Below are positions 44,761 to 52,100 of a stretch of DNA of 64,000 nt, in pieces (the first letter of the stretch is position 1; each line of letters opens with the position of its first letter). The notes under the pieces are model-generated. The model saw nothing but the letters and a program-made list of their open reading frames with translations, searched no databases and had not been told where the DNA came from. Where the stretch lies: NCBI RefSeq assembly GCF_014174275.1, contig NZ_JABEQK010000001.1, forward strand, positions 310,001 through 374,000, given 5' to 3'. The position numbers and the translations under genes are program-made. The stretch comes from Gluconacetobacter takamatsuzukensis (lineage in GTDB: Bacteria; Pseudomonadota; Alphaproteobacteria; Acetobacterales; Acetobacteraceae).

Positions 44761-45627
44761 ATGATCGATGGCATGATCGATTCCGTCACGTTTCCGGACG
44801 GCACGCGCCTGCCGGCGCTGGGCATGGGGACTTGGGCGCTGGGCGACAGTGCCGAGCGCCGGGCGCAGGAGATCGCGAGCCTGCGGCTGGGCCTGGACCT
44901 GGGATTGCGGGTGGTCGACACCGCCGAGATGTATGGGGCCGGGCGGTCGGAAAAGCTGGTGGGCGAGGCGATCGCGGGCCGGCGGGACGAGGTCTTTCTC
45001 GTCACCAAGGTTCTGCCGTCCAATGCCTCGCGCGCCGGGGTGGCGAGCAGTTGCCGGGCATCGCTGAAGCGGCTGGGGACCGACCGGATCGACCTGTACC
45101 TGTTGCACTGGCGGGGGGCGGTGCCGCTGGAGGAGACGATCGGGGCCTTCGAGCTGCTGAAGCGGGAGGGGCTGATCGGCGCGTGGGGGGTGTCGAATTT
45201 CGATGTCGGGGATCTGGACGATCTGGCGCGCGTCGCCTCGCCCGGGCCCTGTGCGGCGAACCAGGTCCTCTACAGCCTCGATTATCGGGGGGTGGAGTTC
45301 GACCTGCTGGAGGCGGACCGGCGCCGGTCCATCGTGACCATGGCCTATTCGCCGCTGGGGCAGGGCGGCGACCTGCTGCACCAGCCGGTGCTGGGGCGGA
45401 TCGCGGCGCGGCACGAGACCAGCCTGGGGCCGGCGACCCCGGCGCAGGTGGCGCTGGCCTGGGTGCTGCGGCAGCCGGGCATGCTGGCGATCCCCAAGGC
45501 GGGGAGCGTGCAGCATCAGCGCGAGAACGTGGCGGCGACCGAACTGGTGCTGACGCCGGAGGATCTGGAGGCGATCGACCGGTCGATCCCGCCGCCGCGC
45601 CGCAAGGTGCCTCTCGCCATGATCTGA
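44761..45627 (+). CDS. Aldo/keto reductase
   Basis: 288 residues. The conserved start LPALGMGTWALGDSAERRAQ leads to VVDTAEMYGAG (catalytic Asp and Tyr), FLVTKVLPSNAS (Lys) and LYLLHWRGAVPLEE (His), completing the tetrad. The NADPH end IPKAGSVQHQRENVAA is also present. It reduces aldehydes or ketones; the substrate is unknown. GAGGAG precedes ATG 44761, and a second ATG four codons in is possible. A 70-base gap separates it from the hydrogenase-like operon, so co-transcription is possible but not shown. Confidence 0.92.
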   Translation: MIDGMIDSVTFPDGTRLPALGMGTWALGDSAERRAQEIASLRLGLDLGLRVVDTAEMYGAGRSEKLVGEAIAGRRDEVFLVTKVLPSNASRAGVASSCRASLKRLGTDRIDLYLLHWRGAVPLEETIGAFELLKREGLIGAWGVSNFDVGDLDDLARVASPGPCAANQVLYSLDYRGVEFDLLEADRRRSIVTMAYSPLGQGGDLLHQPVLGRIAARHETSLGPATPAQVALAWVLRQPGMLAIPKAGSVQHQRENVAATELVLTPEDLEAIDRSIPPPRRKVPLAMI

Positions 45628-45697: not shown

Positions 45698-47455
45698 ATG
45701 CTTGTGTTGTCGGTGCTGCTGCTGGACGGCCTGATGCCCCGGTTCGCGGCGCCCCAGGTGGCCCGGGCGGGGTGGGGGCTGGCCCTTGCGCTGGCCCTGG
45801 CGATGGCCTGCCTGCCTGCGGCGGCGGGTTCCCTGGCCGGCCCGGCTGCCCTGTTGCGTGTCGATGCGCTTTCGCTGCCCTTCGTGCTGATCCTGTCGGT
45901 GGCCGGCCTGGCCTCGGGCGCGCGGACGCCGGTGCTGGCCGGTGCGGCGCTGACCGTTGGTACCGGCAATCCTGTCCTGTTCTGTATCGGTGCGGCGGCC
46001 CTGCTGCCCCTGTTGCGCGCGCGTGCGGTCGTGCCGCGCGCGATGGTGGGGTGGGAGAGTGTCGGGGTGGCGGTGGCGACGGCTCTGCTGTCGGGCCCGC
46101 GGGACTGGCGGCTGGTCGTGTTGCCGGTTCCGGCGCTGGTGGCGGCTGCCGCATTGATGGGGCTGTCGGTGCGGCCGCTTGCCGGCGCGCGGCATGGCGC
46201 GCCCGTGGGGGTTGCGCATCTGGCCGGGTGGGTAGCGGGGCTCTGCCTGGCCCTGCGGATGCTGGTCGACTGGCCCCGGGTGCCCGTGGCGGCGCTGTGG
46301 GGTGGTGGGCTGGTCGTTGTGGGGCTGGTGCTGGCCCTGGCGGGATGCGGGCGGGCGCTGAACGCGCGCGATGCCGGGCGTGTGGCAGCCGGCATGCTGG
46401 GAGGCTGGGGTGGTCTGGCGCTGCTGCTGGTGGGGCTGGTGGTGACGGGGCGGGCGGATGATCTGCCGCTGCTGGCGCTGGGAGCGTTTCGTGCCCTGAT
46501 GCTTCTGGCGGGTGGGGTCGGGATGGCGTTTCTGGCCGCGATCCTGATCCTGGCGGAGATTGCCGAAGCCGCGGGCTCGCTGCGGCTGACGCGGGCCGGC
46601 GGGCTGGCGGCGCTGATGCCGAAAGCGTCGTGCCTGCTGGTCATGGCGCTGGCCGGGGCCTGTGCGCTGCCGCCCTCCGGCGGGTTTGCGGTCACTTGGC
46701 TGCTGGTCCAGTCGCTGCTGGCGCTGCCGCGTGCCGAGGGGCTGGTGGGGGCGATGCCGTTGCTGGCGGCACTGGCCGGGGTGGGGCTGGTGTGCGGGCT
46801 GTTGATCCTCGCGGCGGTGCGCCTGCTGTCCGGCCTGGTGCTGGGGCGGCCGCGTACGCCGCGCGCGGCCGGGGCGACCGACCCGGTGGCGGGGCGGCTG
46901 GCGGTGCCGGCGGCGTGCCTGGGTGGGTCCATGGTCATGGTGCTGGTGCCCGGCCTGTGGCTGTGGCTGACGCGGGGTGCGGGATGGGATGCCGCCGGCC
47001 TGCGGGGTGCGATTCCGCTGGGTGCGCGTCCGGACTGGCTGGCCTTGGCGGCGCCGGGGGGCGGCGGGGCGGTGTATCCGGTCGGTATCGCCGTGCTGCT
47101 GGCGCTGGCGGGGGGGCTGGTGCTGGCACTCTCGCGCCTGGCCGGCACCGTGCCGTCGCGCCCGGTAGCGGCCTGGACCGAGGGGGCGCCGCCGTCGCCG
47201 CCCTGGATGCCGTTCGGCGAGCCGGCGGCGCAGGTCGGGCCGGCGCAGTTGACCGGGGCGCTGGGCTGGAGCGTGGCGGGGGCGCGGCCTGCCCGGCATG
47301 GCGTGCGGCGCGTGGCGCGGCGGACGCGGGTGGTGGCCCGCCGGGTTTTGACGGGGGCGGAGGCAGGGGTGGGCTGGGTGTCGCGCCATGCCATGGGGCT
47401 GGTGCTGCTGTGGCTGGCCGTGGCGGCGCTGGTCCGGATGTGGGGCCGTTCGTGA
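45698..47455 (+). CDS. hyfB: HyfB-like antiporter-type subunit of a hydrogenase-4/complex-I-like complex
   Basis: 585 residues, shorter than the usual HyfB (about 670), with roughly 14 hydrophobic spans. The proton_antipo_M signature region is recognisable: LPPSGGFAVTWLLVQSLLAL after GGLAALMPKASCLLVMALAG. The helix-5 glutamate is retained (Glu120 in GWESVGVAV). At the helix-7 position where relatives have lysine there is Arg265 (GAFRALMLLAGG), and the usual histidines are missing. Only one lysine occurs in the whole protein. It would form part of the ion-translocating arm. Its stop shares a base with the hyfC ATG. Confidence 0.78.
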   Translation: MLVLSVLLLDGLMPRFAAPQVARAGWGLALALALAMACLPAAAGSLAGPAALLRVDALSLPFVLILSVAGLASGARTPVLAGAALTVGTGNPVLFCIGAAALLPLLRARAVVPRAMVGWESVGVAVATALLSGPRDWRLVVLPVPALVAAAALMGLSVRPLAGARHGAPVGVAHLAGWVAGLCLALRMLVDWPRVPVAALWGGGLVVVGLVLALAGCGRALNARDAGRVAAGMLGGWGGLALLLVGLVVTGRADDLPLLALGAFRALMLLAGGVGMAFLAAILILAEIAEAAGSLRLTRAGGLAALMPKASCLLVMALAGACALPPSGGFAVTWLLVQSLLALPRAEGLVGAMPLLAALAGVGLVCGLLILAAVRLLSGLVLGRPRTPRAAGATDPVAGRLAVPAACLGGSMVMVLVPGLWLWLTRGAGWDAAGLRGAIPLGARPDWLALAAPGGGGAVYPVGIAVLLALAGGLVLALSRLAGTVPSRPVAAWTEGAPPSPPWMPFGEPAAQVGPAQLTGALGWSVAGARPARHGVRRVARRTRVVARRVLTGAEAGVGWVSRHAMGLVLLWLAVAALVRMWGRS

Positions 47456-48408
47456 TGGTGTCGTGGGCGATGGTCTCGGCGGCGGTGGCGGGGTGCGTGC
47501 TGCTGCTGGTGCATCTTGTGCTGATGGTGGCCTGTGCGCCCCTTGCGCGGGGGCTGCTGGCGGCGGGGATGGCGCGGGCGGGGGGTGCGGAGCGGGTGCC
47601 GGTGCTGGGGCGGTGGCGGTTGATCCTGTCCTGCGCGCGCCGGCATGGGGTGCGGGCCGCCGGCGGGGCCGAGATCGTGCCCGGGGCGGCGCTGGCGGTC
47701 GCGCTGGCGGCCTGCGTGCTGGTGCCGTCCTTCGCGCTCGGCCTGCCGGGGGGTGGGCTTTCGGATTTGCTGACGGTTTCGGGCCTGCTGGTGCTGGCGC
47801 GCCTGCTGCCGCTGCTGGCGGCGCTGGAGCCGGGCGGGGCGCGGGCCGGGCTGGCGGCGGCGGGGGACGTGACGGCGCTGGCGGCGATGCAGGCGGTCTT
47901 TCCGCTGGCGGTGGCGGCGGCGGTGATGGCGAGCGGGCATGGCGGGATCGATGCCCTGCTGGTGCGCCTGCGCGACCCGGATATGGGGGGCGGGCGGGTG
48001 TCGGCGATGCTGCTGGCCCTTGCCCTGCTGCTGGCCGGGCCGGATGTGGGGCCGGGGGATGACGTGCGCGCGGCGGACATGATGGTCGATCTGGGCGGGC
48101 GCGGCCGGGCCGCGATGGAACTGGCGCGGGACCTGGTGCTGATGGGCTGGATCACGCTGGCGGGCGACCTGGCTTGGCCCGGTGGGCTGGCGGTGCCGCA
48201 GGCCGATGCCCTGTTGCCGCCCGCGATCTCGCTGCCGGGCGCCGTGGCGGCGTGGCTGGCGCGGACGGGGGTGATCTGTGCCGGGATCGTCGCGGCGCGG
48301 GTGGTGGTGATGGGCTCGGCGCGCGGGACGCGGGGACGGCTGGTGCTGGCGCTGCTGTTTGCGACGCTGGCGGTCGTGGTGCTGTTCGCGGATCAGGAGG
48401 TGGCATGA
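47455..48408 (+). CDS. hyfC: HyfC-like (NuoH-type) membrane subunit
   Basis: 317 residues with about eight hydrophobic spans and no lysine at all. Like HyfC/HycD/NuoH it has an N-terminal span, a basic loop (VPVLGRWRLILSCARRHGVR) and several later spans. The charged interface is much altered. Where relatives read a PVDDPxTHLELTM-like loop, this protein has GPGDDVRAADMMVDL, and the usual REM/AEP glutamates appear as Asp and Gln. NuoH-type subunits anchor the catalytic arm to the membrane arm and line the quinone or proton entry. It overlaps hyfB by one base and hyfE by four. Confidence 0.75.
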   Translation: MVSWAMVSAAVAGCVLLLVHLVLMVACAPLARGLLAAGMARAGGAERVPVLGRWRLILSCARRHGVRAAGGAEIVPGAALAVALAACVLVPSFALGLPGGGLSDLLTVSGLLVLARLLPLLAALEPGGARAGLAAAGDVTALAAMQAVFPLAVAAAVMASGHGGIDALLVRLRDPDMGGGRVSAMLLALALLLAGPDVGPGDDVRAADMMVDLGGRGRAAMELARDLVLMGWITLAGDLAWPGGLAVPQADALLPPAISLPGAVAAWLARTGVICAGIVAARVVVMGSARGTRGRLVLALLFATLAVVVLFADQEVA

Positions 48409-48962
48409 TGGCCTCGCCGCTGCCCGGGCTGCTGATTGCGGCGTCTGTCGTGTTGTCGGGCCTGCGGGGGGCGTTGCCCTGGCAGGCCGGGCTGGTGGTG
48501 CTGACGCTGCTGGCGGCGGCACTGGACGGTGGCGCGCTGGTGCGCCCCTGTCTGGCTTCCCTGTTCGTGGTGGCGGGGACGGTGCCGCTGGTCTGGGGGC
48601 TGGGGCGGCTGGAGGACCGGCCGCCGGTGCCGGGGGAGCGGATATCGGGGGTGGGTGGCGGATTGATGCTGACGATCCTGGCCGTGCTGGCGGTGCCGCG
48701 CGGCCTGGTCGATGCCGTGGCGCGGCCGGACCTGATTGCGGCGCTGGTGGCCATTCTGTGCGGTGTGCTGGCGGCCGCCGTCCGGCGGTCCGTCGTGGGG
48801 CAATGCGCGGGGCTGGCGGCGGCGGTGAATGGATTGATGCTGCTGGCCGGCCTGGCCGGGCGGGATGCGGTGCTGGCGGGCGCCATTGCCTTGCAGGTGG
48901 CGCTGCTGCTGGTGGCCTTTGTATGCCTGCGGCGCATTGCCTGGGGGCGGGAGGCGACGTGA
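48405..48962 (+). CDS. hyfE: HyfE-like membrane subunit
   Basis: 185 residues with six or so hydrophobic spans and no lysine. Size and position match HyfE, the NuoK-like piece of hydrogenase-4 (ISGVGGGLMLTILAVLAVPR; NGLMLLAGLAGRDAVLAGAI). It carries few acidic residues inside membrane spans. AGGAGG precedes the double ATG at 48405/48408, and the first overlaps the hyfC stop. On its own it would be hard to assign; the call leans on gene order. Confidence 0.68.
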   Translation: MMASPLPGLLIAASVVLSGLRGALPWQAGLVVLTLLAAALDGGALVRPCLASLFVVAGTVPLVWGLGRLEDRPPVPGERISGVGGGLMLTILAVLAVPRGLVDAVARPDLIAALVAILCGVLAAAVRRSVVGQCAGLAAAVNGLMLLAGLAGRDAVLAGAIALQVALLLVAFVCLRRIAWGREAT

Positions 48963-50110
48963 GCATGGCTGTCGTTTCGTCGCCGCTGCTCTCGCTGCCG
49001 GTGCTGATGCCGCTGGCCCTGTGCTGGCCGTTTCTGTCGATGGGCGTGCTGGCCGCGTGTTCGCCGGCCTCGGCGCGGGCGGCGGCGACAGGCCTTTCGG
49101 GGATCGGGCTGGTGCTGGCCGTGCTGGCGGTGGCGTCGCGCAGCGTGTGGCCGGCGACGCCGTTTGCCGTGCCGCCCGGTCCGCTGGGGCTTCTGCTGCC
49201 GCTGCCGCTGGTGGCGCTGTTTCTGTCCAGCCTGGCGGCCGATGCGGCACCGGCGCGGCAGGGCGCGCGCGTGCTGACCCATGGGCTGGCCGGTGGCGCG
49301 GTCGTCGCGACCGCCTGCGCCGATCCGCTGTCGGGCGCCGTCGCGGTCGGAGGCGTGGCGATGCTGGTGGCGCTGGCGACCGCCGTGACGCGCGGGGCGG
49401 CGCGGGCGGGGTGGGACCTGTTTCGCCTGAGCCTGTCGGGCATCCTGCTGGCGGTGCCCGGTGCGGCGCTGCTGGCGGCATCGGACGCGGCGGGGCGGCT
49501 GGAGGGGCTGGGTGGCCTGTTGCTGACGGTCGGGCTGGGGACCGTGGCCGGGCTGGGGCCGGCGGCCCCGGTCGTGCTGGCGGCCGGCGAGGCGGCGGCG
49601 CCCATGGCCCTGGCGCCGGTCATGACGGCGATTCCGGTGCTGCGTCATCTGGCGGAGGGGCCTGACCCGATGGGGGTGATGGCGCTGGGGCTGGTGACGC
49701 TGTGGCTGATGGCGCTGTCGATCCGCGTGGCCCCCGAGGCGCGGCGTGGCCGCCTGTCGGTGGGGCTGGCGATCGGGCTGGCCGCGGTGGCGGCCGGGGC
49801 TGGCGGCGGGGCCGGGCAGGCTGGGCTGGTGGCGCTGCTGCTGTCGGTCGCGCTGCTGGGGCCTCTGGCGCGGGAGGGAGCGGTGGTGGCCCTGGTGCAT
49901 GCGCCGCTGCTGCCGTTCGGGGGGCTGGTGCTGACGCTGGTTGCCCTGTGCGAGACGGCGCCGCTGCTGGTGCTGCCCGTCGCGGTCGGGGTTGCGGTCG
50001 GCAGCCCGCTGCCGGTGAAGGGTGTGTTCGGGACCGGCTGGCTGGGGCGGGGGGTAGCCGCGCTGTTGCTGGCTGGTCTTGTGATGCTGGTGCTGCGGGG
50101 GTGGCGATGA
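48959..50110 (+). CDS. hyfF: HyfF-like antiporter-type subunit
   Basis: 383 residues from GTG 48959 (overlapping the hyfE stop); ATG 48965 is an alternative, with GGGAGG upstream of both. This is smaller than typical HyfF (about 525). Around 11 hydrophobic spans are visible. The segment VAGLGPAAPVVLAAGEAAAP aligns with the LxxWLPxAHxxAP region of antiporter-like subunits but lacks the histidine, and the following lysine is replaced. One lysine occurs in the protein (LPVKGVFG). Its stop overlaps the hyfG ATG. Confidence 0.7.
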   Translation: MSMAVVSSPLLSLPVLMPLALCWPFLSMGVLAACSPASARAAATGLSGIGLVLAVLAVASRSVWPATPFAVPPGPLGLLLPLPLVALFLSSLAADAAPARQGARVLTHGLAGGAVVATACADPLSGAVAVGGVAMLVALATAVTRGAARAGWDLFRLSLSGILLAVPGAALLAASDAAGRLEGLGGLLLTVGLGTVAGLGPAAPVVLAAGEAAAPMALAPVMTAIPVLRHLAEGPDPMGVMALGLVTLWLMALSIRVAPEARRGRLSVGLAIGLAAVAAGAGGGAGQAGLVALLLSVALLGPLAREGAVVALVHAPLLPFGGLVLTLVALCETAPLLVLPVAVGVAVGSPLPVKGVFGTGWLGRGVAALLLAGLVMLVLRGWR

Positions 50111-51618
50111 TGATCCGGGCCGAACCCGATGCGGCGCCGCGCACCGCCGCCGCGCTGATCCGGCGGGGGGAGGCCGAGGCGGGGGCATGGCGCTTTCGGC
50201 TGGATGAGGAAGGCTGGCACGAACTGGCGGGGGCGCTGGGGCACGATCCGCTGCCGTTCGCGACCCTGTGGGCCGATGGGCGGGATGTGCATGCGCTGTT
50301 TCTGGATGGCGGGGAGCGGCCGCTGGTGGCGAGTGTCGAACCGTATGGCGGCCGCTATCTGGGCCTGTCCCCCGTGCGGCCGGCGGCGGGGCCGTTCGAG
50401 CGCTGCGTGCAGGATCTGTGGGGATGGTCGGCGATGGATGCGCGGGATTCGCGCCCGTGGCTGGACCAGGGGCTGTGGACGGCGACCTGGCCGCTGAGCG
50501 CGCGGCCGGGCCCCGCCGCGTGGCCGCCCGATCCGCCGGATTTTCGGCGGGTGCCGGCGGACCACATGATCCGGGGGAGCGGGCCGGCCGATGGCGGCCA
50601 CCGCACGCCGGCCCATCTGCGCCTGGCGCTGGATGGGCTGGGCATGGTCGGGCAGGCCGAGTGGCGGCTGGGCTATGCGCATCGGGGGATCGTGGCGCGG
50701 CTGGTGGGGCTGGAGGCGGAAGGTGCCGTGCGTCTGGCCGGGCGGGCAGCGGCCGGGGCGTCGGTCGCGCATCAATCGGCGCTGTGCCGGGCGATCGAGG
50801 ATGCGACGGGGCAGGCCGCCGATGCAGGGACCGTGCGGACGCGCGTATTGCTGGCGGAAATCGAGCGGGCGGCGACGCATCTGCATGATGTGTCGCGCGT
50901 GGCGCGGGCGGCCGGGGGGACGGCGCTGGCGGCGGAATGCGAGCGGCTGCGCGAGGCGATCCTGGAGCCGTGCGGCCGGATCGGCGGCCATCGGCTGCTG
51001 ATGGACCGGGTGAGCCCCGGCGGGGCGGGGGACCCGGCGATGGATGACGCGGCGGCGGCCCTCGGCGCCCGGGTGGCGGAGTTGCTGGAGGCTGGGCGGG
51101 ACGGGCTGGTGCGCTGCCGGGCCTGGCCGGGGCTGGAGGCGCGCATTGCCGGCATCGGCGTGCTGGGGCAGTCGGCGGCACGGACGCTGGGGGTGGGCGG
51201 CGTTGCCGGCCGGGCGTCGGCGCGGGAGGAGGATCTGCGGCGGCTGGTGCCGGGCTATCGGCGCGAGTGGCTGGATAGCGGCGTGCGGCGCGGGGGCGAC
51301 GTGGCGGCGCGCATCGATCTGCGGCTGGCGGAACTGGGCGGCGTTGCGCGGCTGCTGCGGGCCGCCCTGGACAGTGCGCCGGTCGTTGGGCGGGTGGCGC
51401 CTGGTGCCGGCGAGGGTGTGGGGTTTGCCGAGGGGCCGCGCGGGGCGGTGTGGTATTGGGTACGCATGGCCGGGGACCGGGTTGTGGCGGCGCATGCCTG
51501 CGACCCGGCGCTGGCCCAGGCCTGTGCTCTGGAGCATGTGCTGGCGGGGGCGCGGGCCGAGGATGTGGAGATGATCGTGCGCTCGTTCGGCCTGTCGGCC
51601 GCCGGGGCGGATCTTTAG
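50107..51618 (+). CDS. hyfG: HyfG-like large subunit (NuoC-NuoD fusion) lacking the NiFe cysteines
   Basis: 503 residues: a NuoC-like part (about 1-125) joined to a NuoD/hydrogenase-large part (about 165-503). The region equivalent to the first CxxC motif reads GRAAAGASVAHQ (212-223), with alanines at both cysteine positions (215 and 218), while His222 is kept. The C-terminus, SFGLSAAGADL, has Ser497 and Gly500 where DPCxxC should be. A NiFe centre therefore cannot form by the usual ligands. There is no lysine and no asparagine. It overlaps hyfF by four bases. It resembles large subunits of energy-converting hydrogenase-related (Ehr) complexes. Confidence 0.82.
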   Translation: MMIRAEPDAAPRTAAALIRRGEAEAGAWRFRLDEEGWHELAGALGHDPLPFATLWADGRDVHALFLDGGERPLVASVEPYGGRYLGLSPVRPAAGPFERCVQDLWGWSAMDARDSRPWLDQGLWTATWPLSARPGPAAWPPDPPDFRRVPADHMIRGSGPADGGHRTPAHLRLALDGLGMVGQAEWRLGYAHRGIVARLVGLEAEGAVRLAGRAAAGASVAHQSALCRAIEDATGQAADAGTVRTRVLLAEIERAATHLHDVSRVARAAGGTALAAECERLREAILEPCGRIGGHRLLMDRVSPGGAGDPAMDDAAAALGARVAELLEAGRDGLVRCRAWPGLEARIAGIGVLGQSAARTLGVGGVAGRASAREEDLRRLVPGYRREWLDSGVRRGGDVAARIDLRLAELGGVARLLRAALDSAPVVGRVAPGAGEGVGFAEGPRGAVWYWVRMAGDRVVAAHACDPALAQACALEHVLAGARAEDVEMIVRSFGLSAAGADL

Positions 51619-51632
51619 GCGGGGGACGAGGC

Positions 51633-52100
51633 TTGGCGCTGCTGCGGGCGATTCTGACGCGGGGATTCCGGCCCGCCATCCGTCTGCCTTCCGTGGGGCC
51701 GATGGCAGTGTTTCACGTGGATACAGGGGGATGCGAGGGCTGCGCGATGGAGGTCGCGGCGCTGGATGGCGCGGCCTATGCGCTGTCGGCGACGGGGCTG
51801 CGCTTCGTGACCACGCCGCGCCTGGCCGACGTGCTGCTGGTGACCGGGCCGCTGACCCGCGCCATGGCCCCGGTGCTGGAGACGGCATGGCATGCCATGC
51901 CCGACCCCAGGGCGCTGGTCGCCGTGGGGGCCTGCGCGATCGATGGCGGGCCGTTCGGGGAAAATTATGCGGTTCTGGGCGGGCTTGAGGGGCGGGCGCC
52001 GCTGGATGCGTCGATCCCCGGCTGCCCGCCTTCGCCGGCGTCCATCGTGGCCGGGCTGGCGGGGCTGCTGGGGGTGTCGGGATTGTCTTCCTCGGCCTGA
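51633..52100 (+). CDS. hyfI: HyfI-like small subunit (NuoB/hydrogenase small type) with intact cluster cysteines
   Basis: 155 residues from TTG 51633 with GACGAGG upstream. All four ligands of the proximal [4Fe-4S] cluster are present: Cys34 and Cys37 in TGGCEGCAMEVAAL, Cys101 in VGACAIDGGPF and Cys131 in PGCPPSPASIVAGL. The CxxC spacing is that of hydrogenase small subunits rather than the CC of NuoB. No lysine occurs. It is the last gene of the operon. No HyfA/HyfH ferredoxin-like gene follows; instead its final 136 bases overlap the 3' end of the convergent pssA, including the Cys131 codon. Confidence 0.82.
   Translation: MALLRAILTRGFRPAIRLPSVGPMAVFHVDTGGCEGCAMEVAALDGAAYALSATGLRFVTTPRLADVLLVTGPLTRAMAPVLETAWHAMPDPRALVAVGACAIDGGPFGENYAVLGGLEGRAPLDASIPGCPPSPASIVAGLAGLLGVSGLSSSA

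Follow-up and report, generated by a model that had tools for sequence, protein, structure and literature searches.

We analyzed a 64,000-nucleotide stretch of the Gluconacetobacter takamatsuzukensis genome (contig NZ_JABEQK010000001.1, positions 310,001 to 374,000; here, the window), which carries a compact forward-strand operon for a membrane complex related to hydrogenase-4 and to the Hyq system of Azorhizobium caulinodans. Six genes follow one another in the order hyfB-C-E-F-G-I: a hyfB/hyqB-like antiporter-like membrane subunit (45698 to 47455; 585 aa), a hyfC/hyqC-like NuoH-family subunit (47455 to 48408; 317 aa, partly worn), a hyfE/hyqE-like subunit (48405 to 48962, starting at 48405 or 48408), a hyfF/hyqF-like antiporter-like subunit (48965 to 50110; 381 aa, compared with 526 in Escherichia coli), a hyfG/hyqG-like large subunit (50107 to 51618), and a hyfI/hyqI-like small subunit with four [4Fe-4S] cysteines (51633 to 52100, from a probable TTG start at 51633, an ATG at 51702 being possible). 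The same gene set was found again among relatives. The abutting genes leave no space for HyfA-, HyfD-, or HyfH-like genes, and in this the operon differs from that of an ordinary Hyf complex.

The large subunit lacks the residues that hold nickel and iron in hydrogenases. HyfG is an open frame of 503 codons with a match to PF00346 (E = 5.7e-15), and among proteins of solved structure the nearest to it in sequence is HycE of the E. coli formate hydrogenlyase (FHL) (7z0s_E; E = 2.3e-18). HycE is also the best structural match to its AlphaFold model (predicted local distance difference test [pLDDT], 81.8; query template modeling score, 0.80). The initial annotation had read the four NiFe positions as Ala, Ala, Ser, and Gly with the matching histidine retained, and both statements were borne out by a 108-row alignment (105 loci plus E. 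coli references), in which HycE cysteines 241, 244, 531, and 534 correspond to A215, A218, S497, and G500 and the histidine is H222. No gap falls across the first motif, GRAAAGASVAH in HyfG and DRVCGICGFAH in HycE. HyfG ends in GADL, and HycE runs on beyond this point in an extension that we take to be the part cleaved off in maturation. The accessory gene hypD was not found in the window's own genome (99.98% complete), other hyp genes not having been searched for. Having no NiFe ligands, no C-terminal extension, and no hypD, the complex is not a NiFe hydrogenase.

The initial annotation presented the missing cysteines as a loss by this one protein, which is not the case. Among the 104 family rows of the alignment besides the positive control L073 (the window's row included), a cysteine at any of the four positions occurred only in L042, and there only one; a repeat of this count omitted the partial row L061, as did the later tree. 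The absence of the cysteine pairs from these rows implies that the loss of NiFe ligands is ancestral to the sampled family. It is also an already published trait of Hyq and of Ehr (energy-converting hydrogenase related) complexes: both CxxC motifs are missing from HyqG in eight genera, and a NiFe site was considered uncertain if not unlikely in 2012 (PMC3357923). Ehr is a general name for group-4 relatives without Ni and Fe ligands, an absence that the window's large subunit shares (PMC6349859, PMC10284858). The evidence supports the part of the initial annotation that placed the complex among group-4 relatives of this kind, unable to bind NiFe by the known ligands and with an intact proximal iron-sulfur (Fe-S) motif. 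L073, from the same family, retains all four cysteines and the C-terminal extension and has hypD within the same 20-kb stretch. This locus (G042:C1:743500-763400) lies in a 1.9-Mb genome and encodes a NiFe-type hydrogenase-4-like large subunit, in contrast to the NiFe-free type.

Phylogenetic analysis of HyfG placed 16 of the 17 window-type rows in one clade (support, 0.996), with L046 elsewhere on a long branch; support for the family node was only 0.286, which leaves the rooting of the tree open. The window's clade also lacks three further cysteines known from A. caulinodans HyqG (C258, C491, and C497), whose positions are A266, I490, and L496 in the window. None of the clade's 18 rows has any of these cysteines, and among 86 relatives outside it they occur in 73, 60, and 60; since 13, 26, and 26 of the outside relatives lack them, they are not family defining in this sample. 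The counts bear on the proposal, made for Azorhizobium Hyq, of an endo-hydrogenase with a non-NiFe site. The hyqRBCEFGI genes were taken for a NiFe endo-hydrogenase (PMC2650096), and the genetic argument for H2 chemistry is that hyq mutants show uptake and release phenotypes (PMC2650096, PMC3357923), but the authors had no cell-free assay of uptake available (PMC3357923). With the three cysteines missing throughout the clade and no nifH match above the cut-off in the window's genome, we consider such an enzyme highly improbable here. Hyq was represented in these comparisons by Xanthobacter orthologues (L144 and L147; Ser, Ser, Ser, and Gly at the NiFe positions) rather than by the Azorhizobium sequence itself.

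None of the window's HyfB, HyfC, HyfE, and HyfF proteins had a Pfam match, even at E ≤ 1. Profiles built solely from relatives outside the window's clade recognized HyfB (E = 7.5e-36), HyfC (2.4e-22), HyfE (1.1e-5, together with its operon position), and HyfI (1.5e-49). The HyfB match spans only window residues 181 to 523, the N-terminal half not being confidently alignable, and HyfB matched NCBIfam hydrogenase 4 subunit B at E = 3.3e-12, under the cut-off of that model. HyfF was assigned by its operon position and by an iterated profile seeded with the window sequence; its structural model, which had no match at E = 0.001 or better, lends weak support.

Both antiporter-like subunits have lost the residues associated with pumping. 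At the positions of NuoM E144, K234, and E407, the window's HyfF has Gly, Val, and Leu, and at those of NuoL E144, K229, H338, and K399, its HyfB has a gap, Leu, Val, and Thr. In 29 chosen loci, the three HyfF residues (E, K, and E) were kept in 14 of 14 proteins outside the clade; within it, K234 and E407 were kept in 0 of 15 and E144 in 1 (L042). Across all available rows, K234 and E407 were kept in 78 of 80 outside the clade versus 0 of 17 inside, where E144 was kept in 1. For HyfB, E144 and K229 were kept in 80 and H338 and E399 in 81 of 83 outside rows, and all four are missing from every one of 11 clade rows. The outside rows include L128, a mispicked HyfF, and L088, which is truncated at a contig end. 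Based on these alignments, the channel Glu and Lys residues of both antiporter-like subunits are gone in the window's lineage, whose complex is probably no longer a proton pump. The ion-channel residues expected of Ehr antiporter-like subunits are missing from subunits that are themselves present, and on this point as well the complex is not an ordinary Hyf complex. Our literature search, which was not worded for pump loss, returned no published report of pump loss in Hyq-type complexes, and as far as that search reached, the pump-stripped form is new.

The same loss was seen in two loci outside the clade. HyfB pump residues are also lost in L056 (G046) and L062 (G019), and the HyfF K and E are lost in L062; both loci still carry the four HyfI cysteines. 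They branch beside the weakly placed root and so may form one pump-less group with the window's clade. The pump-less form may extend beyond that clade.

A working energy-coupled Ehr complex that moves ions through other residues was also considered. Most relatives keep the full pump, the C-terminal half of HyfB is recognizable, and at 11 acidic positions of HyfC conserved in relatives, the window retains 6 acids (several with Asp for Glu) and has lost 5. However, no channel Lys or Glu is kept in the window, where lysines number one in HyfB, one in HyfF, and none in HyfC or HyfE, and we regard pumping by such a route as improbable.

The small subunit presents a different picture from the membrane arm. 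HyfI matches PF01058 (E = 3.5e-27, 51702 to 52097), and the initial annotation was correct in assigning it Cys34, 37, 101, and 131, as counted from the TTG at 51633 (32, 35, 99, and 129 from 51639). The four cysteines are kept in 98 of 98 aligned loci, following the CxxC-C-C pattern of HyqI; the remaining 7 of the 105 stretches yielded no hyfI within the position filter. The spacing of the CxxC is the same as in the NiFe control L169. This bears on a sulfane reductase resembling the archaeal MBS complex, a relative without a NiFe site that catalyzes at its proximal cluster (PMC7684303). The MBS motif is shortened and leaves one Fe free (PMC7684303), but the hydrogenase-type spacing of HyfI should give four-cysteine ligation and the operon has no ferredoxin-binding subunit, which makes MBS-like catalysis the least probable of the alternatives weighed here.

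We searched 16 genomes for hyfI irrespective of its distance from hyfG. A Hyf-type hyfI was present in all 14 complex-bearing genomes, 13 of which encode the four cysteines, and in five (G014, G021, G035, G050, and G058) it lies far from hyfG. The other two genomes were that of the NiFe type (G042) and one with neither hyfG nor a Hyf-type hyfI (G013). In G035, G021, and G058, the relocated hyfI is just upstream of, and on the same strand as, a gene for an nrtR-type regulator, after which come nadA, nadB, and nadC; the hyfI and nrtR frames overlap in G058. In G038, hyfI is still near hyfG and is followed by nrtR, and in G045, nadB and nadC lie ∼2.4 kb from hyfI. In all, hyfI directly precedes nrtR in four genera (loci L189, L191, L193, and L070), with nadA-nadB-nadC next in three of these. 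The genomes G035, G021, G058, G038, and G045 represent one branch of the HyfG tree, so that the adjacency may be a single event. For this sub-lineage, the location of hyfI beside NAD synthesis genes hints that a partner may belong to NAD metabolism. The window's own genome has its nrtR gene elsewhere.

We estimated the ratio of nonsynonymous to synonymous substitution rates (dN/dS) by a simple counting method, on aligned parts of high-GC genes and, for the window's genus, on seven loci. All genes and all pairs gave ratios below 1. Between the window and its genus, it was 0.08 to 0.16 for hyfI, 0.23 to 0.43 for hyfG, 0.17 to 0.39 for hyfE, 0.26 to 0.51 for hyfF, 0.27 to 0.61 for hyfB, and 0.25 to 0.66 for hyfC, with pepA (0.10 to 0.29) and an aldo/keto reductase gene (0.19 to 0.30) as references. 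Median values in the genus versus four other genera were 0.21 versus 0.18 to 0.37 for hyfI and 0.46 versus 0.24 to 0.47 for hyfB; together with the hyfC medians given below, these show that the membrane arm is relaxed, most clearly in hyfC, and that the Fe-S subunit is not.

The main rival explanation is slow decay, in which the operon would be a remnant of a pumping Hyq complex that loses its functions stepwise under relaxed selection and leaves HyfI a residual role at most. The lost pump residues, short HyfF, raised hyfB and hyfC ratios, and faster evolution of HyfG (mean distance from the family node, 2.04 versus 1.40) all fit such a history, as does the genus genome G013 (87% complete), in which neither hyfG nor a Hyf-type hyfI was found. 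On the other hand, no pair reached a dN/dS of 1, hyfI is under strong constraint and was retained after relocation, and the hyfG frame gave a single unbroken match in 12 of the 13 genus genomes that have it (the window's own included). The exception is G012, where small indels in L041 split hyfG across frames; the gene is open in the 98.6% identical L036 of G003. We take G003 and G012 to be possibly two PAl 5 assemblies, and the split is perhaps an assembly error. Differences between two PAl 5 assemblies are on record (PMC3035290). Overall, we consider slow decay less likely than the reading below, but still a serious possibility.

We instead favor, at close to an even chance, a non-hydrogenase and probably non-pumping derivative of Hyq/Ehr, with one Fe-S cluster on a membrane anchor that is still used for electron transfer. 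The metal and pump residues are gone, yet the Fe-S protein is under selection, and the complex therefore probably has another electron-handling job. In this scheme, a soluble reductant would pass electrons straight to the HyfI cluster, a direct route proposed because the operon encodes no HyfA/HyfH-type relay. Electrons would then leave for a small acceptor or a quinone in a pocket between HyfG, HyfI, and HyfC, with no ion pumping. The membrane subunits would mainly serve as an anchor. The parts that have been preserved are HyfI, the protein of the proximal [4Fe-4S] cluster, and the surrounding HyfG scaffold. The more general statement, that a complex I superfamily member without metal site and pumps survives as a membrane-anchored one-cluster redox device, is possible, and we hold it tentatively.

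Several observations weigh against this interpretation. Clustering of the neighborhoods of 105 loci, many of them ended early by contig ends, found no electron partner. The absence of a HyfA/HyfH-type relay applies to the operon, no search having been made in the rest of the genome. A quinone acceptor is weakly founded, as the position of the complex I quinone Tyr is Ala in the window's HyfG and Gly in 84 of 86 relatives. The HyfI of G014 lacks the first cysteine. HyfF was not found by the profile of outside-clade relatives, and its model is poor (pLDDT, 60; best matches to NuoL, with E above 0.01). The six acids retained in HyfC imply a membrane arm that is not wholly inert by sequence. The median hyfC dN/dS was 0.58 in the window's genus versus 0.15 to 0.30 in four other genera, and the raised ratios of the membrane subunits also fit slow decay. 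Finally, deletion of hyq in Azorhizobium alters H2 release (PMC3357923), an effect that must be indirect or lineage specific if the one-cluster redox complex is correct.

The survey of Acetobacteraceae proposed in the initial annotation was carried out as a protein search of 100 genomes, the window's own included, at a threshold of 100 bits. HyfG homologues were present in 51 genomes, 48 of them from the window's family, including 13 of 14 from its genus. Some genomes being incomplete, hypD was found in 12 of the 100 and in 8 of the 51 with the large subunit (43 without), and nifH exceeded its cut-off in 5, all among the 51 (46 without). These tallies do not agree with the published statement that hyq is absent from non-diazotrophs generally (PMC2930871), and they make H2 recycling unlikely as a general function. 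A scan of named genomes confirmed at least 555 relatives, of which 80 were retained, among them Roseomonas and allies, Belnapia, Xanthobacter, Methylocapsa, Azospirillum, and a Rhodocyclaceae metagenome-assembled genome (MAG). Three MAGs labeled Asaia bogorensis (L084, L086, and L109) encode a Roseomonas-type HyfG, 69 to 72% identical to a Roseicella protein, and these labels may be wrong.

If the proposed reading is true, the membrane arm of this family can be uncoupled and made into a scaffold even as the N2-type cluster is held by selection. A relative with strong selection on that cluster but without the proton-channel residues would be a natural experiment in which electron transfer and pumping are separated within the complex I superfamily.

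Several known systems can be compared with the complex. Azorhizobium Hyq has the same six structural genes, no hyfA or hyfD, HyqG without CxxC, and the CxxC-C-C pattern in HyqI (PMC2650096, PMC3357923). The pump residues are present in most Hyq-type relatives, and the three HyqG cysteines in many; the window's complex has neither. Ehr complexes are suspected of coupling redox chemistry to ion transport; in the window's complex, the pump residues are lost and the operon contains no input module. The E. coli hydrogenase-4 and FHL complexes (Hyf and Hyc) have homologous subunits, and the HyfG model is closest to HycE, but the window has no NiFe ligands, C-terminal extension, or HyfB/HyfF channel residues, and no HyfA, HyfD, HyfH, or HyfJ in the operon. 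The MBS complex of Pyrococcus furiosus is likewise a group-4 relative that lacks a NiFe site. It retains two of the four cysteines and differs further in its three clusters, its Mrp-like membrane arm, and its altered proximal-cluster motif (PMC7684303). Complex I has homologous subunits (NuoB, NuoD, NuoH, NuoL, and NuoM) and shares PF00346 and PF01058; unlike it, the window's complex has no quinone-site Tyr and no NADH module in the operon, and its small subunit has CxxC in place of CC. A comparable list of subunits is described for the rv0082-rv0087 operon of Mycobacterium tuberculosis (PMC6901956).

We did not encounter a hyqR-type upstream regulator at the window locus, where the gene directly upstream of hyfB encodes an aldo/keto reductase (44761 to 45627, forward strand; PF00248, E = 2.9e-53). 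Homologues of this reductase occur in the fetched stretch of 28 of the 105 loci, the window's own included; it is a candidate, as yet unproven, for a link to the complex. A small regulator-like open reading frame, identified by reading with no family search, was seen in 7 of the 105 loci and lies upstream in 6. We rejected control by NifA/sigma-54: the window contains 17 near-matches to a sigma-54-type consensus versus 24 expected by shuffling. Nitrogen fixation in the window's own genome was also rejected, the nifH matches being weak (best, 22.6 bits versus a cut-off of 394). In contrast, hyq of Azorhizobium is under NifA control (PMC2650096).

The neighborhoods contained a few other recurrent genes. 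In 11 of the 105 loci (for example, L079:2924-3391), hyfG and hyfI are separated by what we take, with no family search, to be a glyoxalase/vicinal oxygen chelate (VOC)-like gene. A presumed tripartite ATP-independent periplasmic (TRAP)-permease-like gene, likewise labeled with no family search behind it, is near 31 of the 105 loci without an evident link to the complex, and the further genes recovered by clustering likewise show none. The window's own genome carries two other NuoD-type genes (G000:C6:46050-46862 and G000:C11:37004-37816), one of them within a frame of 595 codons, suggestive of a NuoCD fusion, and there are possibly two complex I enzymes in this genome besides the complex described here.

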